Assembly (NCBI GenBank): GCA_026874595.1
Contig: CM049318.1
Span: forward strand, 48,712,456 to 48,776,455
DNA from: Sipunculus nudus
Taxonomy: Eukaryota > Annelida > Sipuncula > Golfingiida > Sipunculidae
DNA: 64,000 nt
Direction: 5' to 3'
Below the pieces are notes generated by a model that was not told the DNA's origin, made no database searches, and worked only from the letters and a program-made list of their open reading frames with translations. Positions 24,901-27,900 of the stretch are shown here, in pieces. Made by a program: the position numbers and the translations under genes. The stretch's first letter is position 1, and each line of letters begins with the position of its first letter.

Positions 24901-27900
24901 TAAATAAAAATGTATTTCTGGGCACACAAATTTTTTTAGGTATATGTAGTGAACCTATGATCTTATTTTACTATACCTTGAAGCGGTCGATCATATTATC
25001 AATTTTATTTCGAGGCAGGAGTGCGAGGCACTCACTATAAATAGGTGCCCACTTTGAAAGATTTAACTGTATATAATATATTATGTTTGTTAATAACTAT
25101 CACGAAAGATATTTAAAAAAAAGATCTCTACTTACCATTTTAGGAAGTACATGTGTCAAAGATAACCCTTGCAAAAACGGCGGGACCTGTCACTCTTTAG
25201 GTGGTGGAAGATATAGGTGTAATTGTCAAAAACCGTTCACGGGACCCAACTGTTTGCAGAGTGAGTATGTTTCCCTGTCTTAAGCGTTCCAGGGACCCAA
25301 TTATTTGCATAGTGAGTATGCCTCCATGTCTAAACCGTTAACGAAACCAACTCTTTGAGAGTGAGTTGGCCTCCCTGTCTAAACCGTTCACAGGACCCAA
25401 CTCTTTGCAGAGTGTGTATGCCTCCCTGTCTAAACCGTTTACGGGACCCAATTGTTTGCAGAGTGAGTATGCTGCCTTGTCTAAACCGTTCACGGGACCC
25501 AACTGTTTGCAGAGTGAGTATGCTTTCATATCTAACCCGTTTACGGGACCCAACTGTTTGCAGAGTGATATGCCTTCCTGTCTTAACCGTTCACGGGACC
25601 CAATTGTTTGCAGAGTGATTATGCCTCCCCATCTTAACCGTTCACGGGACCCAACTGTTTGTAGAGTGAGTATGCCTCCCCGTCTTAACAGTTCACGGGA
25701 CCCAACTGTTCGCAGAGTGAGTATGCCTCCCTGTCTCAACCGTTCACGGGACCCAATTGTTTGCAGAGTGAGTATGCCTCCCTGTCTTAACCGTTCACGG
25801 GGCCCAATTGTTTGCAGAGTGAGTATGCCTCCCCGTCTTAACCGTTCACGGGACCCAACTGTTTGCAGAGTGAGTATGCTTTCATGTCTAACCCGTTTAC
25901 GGGACCCAACTGTTTGCAGAGTGATATGCCTTCCTGTCTCAACCGTTTACGGGACCCAACTGTTTGCAGAGTGATATGCCTTCCTGTCTTAACCGTTCAC
26001 GGGACCCAATTGTTTGCAGAGTGAGTATGCCTCCCTGTCTTAACCGTTCACGGGACCCAATTGTTTGCAGAGTGATTATGCCTCCCCATCTTAACCGTTC
26101 ACGGGACCCAACTGTTTGTAGAGTGAGTATGCCTCCCCGTCTTAACCGTTCAAGGGACCCAACTGTTTGCAGAGTGAGTATGTTTCCATATCTAACCCGT
26201 TTACGGGACCCAACTGTTCGCAGAGTGAGTATGCCTCCCTGTCTCAACCGTTCACGGGACCCAATTGTTTGCAGAGTGAGTATGCCTCCCTGTCTTAACC
26301 GTTCACGGGACCCAATTGTTTGCAGAGTGATATGCCTTCCTGTCTCAATCGTTTACGGGACCCAACTGTTTGCAGAGTGATATGCCTTCCTGTCTTAACC
26401 GTTCACGGGACCCAATTGTTTGCAGAGTGATTATGCCTCCCTGTCTTAACCGTTCACGGGACCCAATTGTTTGCAGAGTGATTATGCCTCCCCATCTTAA
26501 CCGTTCACGGGACCCAACTGTTTGTAGAGTGAGTATGCCTCCCCGTCTTAACCGTTCAAGGGACCCAACTGTTTGCAGAGTGAGTATGTTTCCATATCTA
26601 ACCCGTTTACGGGACCCAACTGTTCGCAGAGTGAGTATGCCTCCCTGTCTCAACCGTTCACGGGACCCAATTGTTTGCAGAGTGAGTATGCCTCCCTGTC
26701 TTAACCGTTCACGGGACCCAATTGTTTGCAGAGTGAGTATGCCTCCCCGTCTTAACCGTTCACGGGACCCAACTGTTTGCAGAGTGAGTATGCCTCCCTG
26801 TCTCAACCGTTCACGGGACCCAATTGTTTGCAGAGTGAGTATGCCTCATTGTGGTAACCGTTCACGGGACCCAATTGTTTGCAGAGTGATTATGCCTCCC
26901 CATGTTAACCGTTCACGGGACCCAACTGTTTGCAGAGTGAGTATGCTTCCATATCTAACCCGTTTACGGGACCAAACTGTTTGCAGAGTGTGCAGGCCTC
27001 CATGTCTAAACGGTTCAAAGGACCTGACTGTTTGGAGATGGGGTCTGCGTCCATGTCTAAACCTTTCACGGGACCAAGTACTTGCAGATTGAGTATGCTT
27101 CCTTCAGTGTCTAAAGAAATCAGAAATTTTGCTGCATCAATCAAGACATTTAAAAAAAAAAGGAATGCAAATTATTCACTGTTTATTTGGAATTTTGTTG
27201 ATATTTTTCTTGTTTCAGTGAGTTTAAATAACATGACCCAGTTATGCTAAGCTTTTGCAAATTCTCAAGCAATGTGTTGAAAACCTTAACAAACTGTTCA
27301 AACGAACAGATCGCCTCCCTAGATATCTTTGTTGTTTTTGTGTTTTCAGGAATCGCCGGGATACGGCACTTAATCATTACTCATATGTTTTTGCATGATC
27401 ATTATGATAAGTGTCAGATGAAATGATTAATGTTTAGTTATGTGTCATCTGATCTTTAGTAATGGGCCTTTGACGATCGTCTGTCCGATAGGCCGTCTTA
27501 TCTGACCGTCAGTCCTGAACAGGGCGCAAATTAGTCGCTGCACCTAGAAATATCAGACATTATATCCTTATAGGTCCTGTAGAGAACTTCTTGGAGCCAA
27601 GAAATTGTTACAGTGGCCTATATTTTGCAAGCAATTGACCACATCCGATTTTTGGCACTCTAAAAATCAACCTTCTATTGCTCAAGGTTATTTCAGATAT
27701 TTTGTGTTTGTTCATTTTATATAAAAGTAATATCAACTGCTATTATACTGTCAGCACGTAAAGATTCGACAGAACTGGGCCAGTATTCTTCCAGTTGTTA
27801 CAGTCACATTGGTAATGTGATTGTTATATGTAAGGAAGCTGTAGGTGGCGCCACCTGTGTTACCTGTTTTCTGCAAGACAAAATACCATGCCCACCCCCC

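Follow-up and report, generated by a model that had tools for sequence, protein, structure and literature searches.

The EGF gene and the array at its exon 9

The window, a 64,000-nt stretch of DNA, contains an EGF gene in which the end of one exon lies within a large tandem array. A pattern scan of the window revealed ten EGF exons on the forward strand (positions 13030-30122) and two on the reverse strand. Throughout the ten forward exons, a GT (GC in exon 5) is located 7 nt past the last cysteine, and on the basis of this spacing the donor of exon 9 was placed at 25260/25261, a position that agrees with the nine sister exons. As judged from the EGF pattern, the donor spacing, and the translation, exon 9 occupies 25144-25260 (forward strand, 117 nt, phase 1-1). 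It is followed by the presumed authentic 5' splice site of intron 9, GTGAGT at 25261-25266 (forward strand), which homology with the sister exons places in the context TTGCAGA/GTGAGT (here and below, a slash within a motif marks the splice boundary). Intron 9 extends over 4,746 nt (25261-30006, forward strand) according to the exon 9 and exon 10 boundaries, and the array makes up its first 1,842 nt. Exon 10 (30007-30129, forward strand) begins at TTCTGCAG/GGGACCC... and was recognized by its EGF pattern, with EGF10 at 30015-30122, in keeping with the label "exon 9" used in a preliminary description of this DNA. Exon 5 possesses an apparent GC donor, GGTATAG/GCGAGT (16936-16946). Smaller repeats were noted at two sister exons: a junction repeat of CAACAGGTAGGTCA (14 bp x 2.4) lies across the exon 8 donor at 23399-23432, and a 23-bp repeat at 13139-13187 begins 4 nt past the exon 1 donor. 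Elsewhere, the window holds two long minisatellites, at 58233-59550 (32 bp x 41) and at 62737-64000 (52 bp x 24, reaching the window end), and two long open frames of 327 and 451 aa on the reverse strand at 5640-7960, perhaps a mobile element.

Tandem Repeats Finder (TRF) reported the exon 9 array as a forward-strand minisatellite at 25231-27102 with a period of 51, 36.9 copies, and 87% matches, and cyclic (wrap-around) alignment resolved it into 37 units with unit 0 included. Unit 0 (25231-25281, forward strand) joins the final 30 nt of exon 9 to the initial 21 nt of intron 9, and its exonic part matches the array consensus without exception over 30 positions. The remaining 36 units lie inside intron 9 (25282-27102, forward strand); units 1-3 and 34-36 at the edges are degenerate. 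These analyses agree with the preliminary description of a 51-bp unit made from the exon 9 end and the intron 9 start in about 37 copies. Its span of 25231-27111 was correct at the start, whereas the TRF end is 9 nt shorter. Its figure of about two dozen copies with CAGAGTGAGT was too high, as this motif was counted in 18 of the 37 units (17 of the 36 downstream of unit 0). AGTGAGT is present in 23 of 37 units (22 of 36 downstream), compared with only 3 occurrences on the forward strand and 2 on the reverse strand in the remaining window. AGAGTGAGT occurs 22 times in the array, unit 0 counted, and TTTGCAGA is kept by 27 of the 37 units. Ten core units possess decayed donors, GTGATT in five and GTGATA in five. 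The array length comes from one assembly; the 37 units fall into 28 different sequences, a diversity that makes a simple assembly echo less likely. In a genome search that skipped common words, all 21 matches to the unit fell within the exon 9 array; seeding by a dispersed repeat was rejected on account of this single genomic place, with the caveat that such a search is no proof.

Splice-like signals and history of the array

Beyond the donor, most units contain two further signals that were absent from the preliminary description, a 3'-splice-site-like TTTGCAG and a branch-point-like TTAAC or CTAAC. The latter pentamers, which we take to resemble branch points, precede the next unit's acceptor AG in 22 of the 37 units, at a distance of about 27 nt by manual count on the consensus. 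Judged by these motifs, each unit is a potential 50-nt mini-intron. The acceptor and donor signals of a unit are one base apart (CAG-A-GTGAGT), so the unit core reads CAGAGT rather than the AGGT expected of a true dual-specific site, and because of this 1-nt offset the unit junction is not a true dual-specific AG/GT site.

We then considered the reading-frame outcomes of using sites other than the first donor. Translation past 25260 meets an in-frame TAA at 25281-25283 (forward strand), which is reached when any donor past the authentic one is used, just as the preliminary description had stated. Pseudo-exons beginning at the acceptors of units 4, 10, 20, and 28 start with AAG TGA in four of four cases tested, and exon 9 joined to any of these four acceptors likewise reads AAG TGA, with the stop as the second codon. 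Because stops follow both late donors and the array acceptors tested, mis-splicing would cost transcripts, with no new protein being made. The predicted accessibility of the first donor ranked 30, 19, 15, and 14 of 37 (with flanks of 40, 80, 120, and 200 nt, respectively), and three unit-sized RNA folds were no better than their shuffles (z of 0.67, 1.01, and -0.66). RNA structure was therefore rejected as a selector of the first donor, given unremarkable ranks and folds close to those of shuffled sequence.

The divergence among units provides a record of how the array developed. Edge units 1-3, 34, and 35 differ from the consensus by 0.14 mismatches per nt in the exonic part and 0.18 in the intronic part, whereas for core units 4-33 these values fall to 0.04 and 0.097; this homogenized core with divergent edge copies is a feature of the mirages discussed below. 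When units were compared at lags of 1 to 19, identity was maximal at lag 8 (0.905, with 5 of 29 pairs identical), and the other lags yielded 0-2 identical pairs, a pattern that duplication of blocks about eight units long would produce. Variation per site within the core was lower in the exonic part (0.061) than in the intronic part (0.155), with a column permutation p of 0.0185 that is subject to linkage between columns. The lower exonic variation could be a hint of constraint on the splice-like half, which would speak against a purely passive array.

Similar arrays elsewhere in the genome

A search of the genome (1.43 Gb) for three copies of CAGGTAAGT within a short distance returned 265 places, compared to 133 for the reversed motif. 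Among the matches listed, these correspond to 19 and 4 loci, respectively, over C1 to C9:11.6 Mb. Single motifs were less skewed (15,332 CAGGTAAGT versus 12,946 reversed, 1.18-fold), and given this share the binomial probability of 19 or more of 23 array loci is 0.004, or 0.007 after removal of one locus that belongs to a dispersed 30-bp family. This family was seen as arrays of a GTGAGTGATCATCTCTGATTATGCTTACAG-like unit at four distant loci (L067, L069, L071, and L057, on C4, C5, C6, and C8), with no evident exon at the array start in any of the four; together they represent a minisatellite family that is dispersed and carries donors. A second donor motif, CAGGTGAGT, gave 409 places versus 45 for its reversed form; the matches listed represent 23 loci, of which 21 were fetched for flank reading. 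A third motif, CAGATGAGT, proved to be a poor control because it is one base off a donor; it yielded 9 loci, 5 of them over C1 to C9:11.6 Mb, and one of the nine (L055) itself looks like a junction array. Acceptor-type arrays were found at 403 places versus 1,031 for the reversed pattern, with a few long arrays dominating among the matches listed, and the one acceptor-array end that was fetched (L081) revealed no exon by eye.

When the flanks were read non-blind, an exon-like stretch was seen to end at the array start or close to it in 12 of 19 CAGGTAAGT loci, among which the array start was not reached at L041/L058, and in 11 of 21 CAGGTGAGT loci. At four loci, the array begins past the exon-like end, by 47 nt (L061), 49 nt (L068), 12 nt (L070), or 96 nt (L076). 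A blind exon rule (pyrimidine tract, AG, and an open frame up to the first donor) was dropped because it did not separate donor arrays from control arrays. Donor arrays passed it in 8 of 18 and 9 of 21 cases and control arrays in 3 of 8, isolated donor-like sites of the window passed at 13-18%, and the rule missed L030, L042, and L062, all of which have homology support. Since the blind rule failed and the flank reading was non-blind, our exon claims rest on homology.

Peptides from 20 of the 23 exon-like loci (L034, L039, and L076 were left out) were compared with Pfam, and 12 of the 20 matched no family whatever. Strong matches were obtained for a Kunitz domain at L063 (Pfam 4.3e-20, above the Pfam cut-off) and for the PTB domain of X11 at L075 (Pfam 0.0057, PDB 4.3e-8). 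An LRR at L062 (Pfam 2.1e-5) and a permease family at L042 (Pfam 5.6e-4) gave moderate matches below the cut-off, and the PH domain match at L029 was weak (Pfam 0.016 with 20 peptides tried); three of these five supports lie under the Pfam curated cut-off and have no further backing. The arrays at L029, L042, L062, L063, and L075 include 21, 33, 15, 22, and 21 exonic nt, respectively, and at all five loci the reading frame ends at a stop 1-42 nt past the donor. On this evidence, five other exons (two with strong, two with moderate, and one with weak homology support) appear to carry arrays of the same geometry as that of exon 9.

Several other candidates were demoted or set aside. An EGF exon at L012 (4.8e-5; 31 exonic nt in the array) and an ABCC2 match at L030 (PDB 0.0085) are not counted as junction arrays, as each has a unit length divisible by three and a frame that continues without a stop for 710 and 375 nt, respectively, past the donor; these arrays could instead be coding repeats. 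At L030-L033 (C2:8.512-8.514 Mb), a 42-bp unit is repeated about 42 times at the end of the ABCC2-like exon; the unit is mostly exonic plus GTAAG, its consensus CAG/GTAAG forms a true AG/GT tandem, and it may be coding. Matches at L072 (beta-lactamase, 0.025, with no match in PDB), L047 (PEX-2N, 0.12), and L040 (DNA-PKcs, PDB 0.6) were too weak to count. The possibly DNA-PKcs-like exon at L040 (C4:88.725 Mb) is flanked by repeats, which consist of GGGTGGGCATGAT units on the acceptor side and are also present on the donor side. PDB searches at E <= 1 gave no match for L070, L064, L072, or L028, and the best match for L061 (0.94) was unusable.

The question of whether donors are preferred seeds was also addressed with a set of 40 EGF exons followed by GT or GC at the predicted donor position, drawn from 19 loci similar to exon 9 and from the window, using a TRF score of at least 40. 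An array spans the donor in 2 of the 40, both in the window gene (exons 8 and 9), and two further arrays begin shortly past a donor, by 4 nt at exon 1 and by 8 nt at L014. In the other loci of the set, L014 aside, no array was present within 10 nt of an EGF exon donor. None of the 40 acceptors is spanned, and a repeat lies within 10 nt of the acceptor in 3 of 40. The array at the L014 EGF exon (C15:43.554 Mb; 31 bp x 37.8) is intronic and not derived from the boundary. With the exon 9 array excluded, tandem repeats make up 12.6% of the window (TRF score of at least 50); the 2 of 40 spanned donors fall below this share, so the EGF set provides no donor excess. On donor seeding, the EGF exons thus point the opposite way to the motif census.

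Relation to known systems and likely origin

The exon 9 array closely resembles the mirages of amphioxus, described as tandem repeats of exon-intron boundaries in Adh3 (2002 report), in the globin genes BflGb6 and BflGb9 (PMC3087553), and in troponin C and PGBD5 (PMC3902484). Both structures involve a minisatellite-like duplication across an exon-intron boundary, and mirages occur at 5' or 3' boundaries with many copies keeping AG/GT signals, a homogenized core, and divergent boundary units. The defining composition of a mirage, an exon end plus the adjacent intron, is found here as 30 exonic and 21 intronic nt per unit. The exon 9 array differs in its copy number (about 37, versus 3 and 6 in the two BflGb6 haplotypes) and in its apparently lophotrochozoan rather than cephalochordate host. 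In amphioxus, RT-PCR suggests that regular splicing is not interfered with (PMC3087553); mirages are further described as length-unstable and as a possible explanation for novel introns (PMC3087553). The preliminary description had suggested that the exon 9 array may compete for U1, alter splicing efficiency, or vary in length with splicing consequences; by analogy, the amphioxus precedent favors the length polymorphism but disfavors any influence on splicing. In the part of the literature that was searched, no explicit report of a boundary minisatellite outside of amphioxus was found.

Other known systems share single aspects with the array. In human UBC, dual-specific splice sites are arrayed in tandem, and the unit boundaries, like those of the exon 9 array, combine overlapping 3' and 5' splice signals (PMC10809524). 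The UBC site is AG/GT within coding, in-frame units, whereas the exon 9 array has CAG-A-GTGAGT in intronic units that mostly contain a stop; dual-specific arrays are a functional parallel to the array and not a class to which it belongs. In models of intron gain, an AG-GT-containing sequence that is duplicated in tandem gives rise to potential unit-length introns (PMC3443670, PMC2891723). Protosplice-site duplication copies an exonic piece and gives a new intron, whereas here an existing boundary was copied; because intron 9 lies at the same place of the EGF fold as the gene's other introns, no intron gain is apparent. Earthworm metallothionein genes offer an example of a large tandem array in a lophotrochozoan gene intron, with minisatellites in the first intron whose monomers average about 180 nt, and the part of the source consulted makes no mention of an exon boundary in the monomer (PMC12783039).

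The array is a real and striking structure that belongs to an already known kind, and it is most likely passive, being spliced out from the first donor. We are fairly confident that it is a mirage, i.e., a minisatellite born at the boundary that grew by block duplication, is tolerated, and leaves along with intron 9. We infer that a tandem duplication that crossed the exon 9 boundary would have created the 51-bp unit with its donor, possibly aided by similar stretches in the exon (TGTCAAAAACCG) and at the unit edge (TGTCT-AAACCG), and that later duplications of multi-unit blocks of about eight units each would have expanded it to about 37 copies. The first copy, the sole one joined to the exon body, keeps its donor, and the rest is intronic and would be lost with intron 9. 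The array would be tolerated because the exon-attached copy retains a donor and all downstream copies are intronic; any mis-spliced RNA would presumably decay. What makes the array more interesting than a lone mirage is the presence of similar arrays at several other exons of an apparently lophotrochozoan genome, together with the potential mini-intron anatomy of its unit. The authentic donor is followed by dozens of surplus splice-site motifs.

A broader proposal is that 5' splice-site junctions are recurrent minisatellite seeds in this genome, such that length-variable splice-site arrays, that of exon 9 included and each unit being a potential mini-intron, yield isoforms and new introns genome-wide; we regard this as unlikely. 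If junction arrays were common here, the choice by the spliceosome of the first among dozens of near-identical 5' splice sites could be tested in natural genes, and the seeding of introns by boundary minisatellites could be tested at several loci of one species, as opposed to a few lancelet genes.

We also regard as unlikely the view that the array acts as a field of near-dual-specific splice sites, in which units are removed as 50-, 101-, or 152-nt mini-introns, before or instead of the removal of intron 9, or in which poison pseudo-exons lower expression according to copy number. The retention of TTTGCAGA and of the TTAAC/CTAAC motifs before the next acceptor, the AAG TGA starts of the four pseudo-exons tested, and the use of a tandem dual-specific array by human UBC (PMC10809524) are consistent with this view. 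The 3' and 5' sites are one base apart, however, so each round of recursive splicing would leave one extra base, the pyrimidine tract looks poor by eye, and amphioxus mirages leave splicing undisturbed (PMC3087553, PMC3902484).

It is very improbable that the array serves as a reservoir or competitor for U1, with 23 GTGAGT copies delaying the removal of intron 9 or suppressing premature polyadenylation. The density of AGTGAGT, 23 copies in 1.9 kb versus the 3 forward-strand copies in the remaining window, fits such a role, but the donors of ten core units have decayed and the first donor does not stand out in predicted accessibility. Mis-assembly is frequent in tandem arrays, but the many distinct units, the degenerate edges, the block structure, and the single genomic place make it extremely unlikely that a real but short repeat acquired its 37-copy length through assembly.

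With regard to the host, searches of the genome for a molluscan haemocyanin beta-sandwich and for GFP gave no match, a result of little weight because the control genomes were silent too. The locus L080 (C14:34.78 Mb) encodes an FMRFamide-type precursor whose single open frame of 427 aa contains 22 copies of FMRFG and 1 of FLRFG; this presumably points to a lophotrochozoan host.
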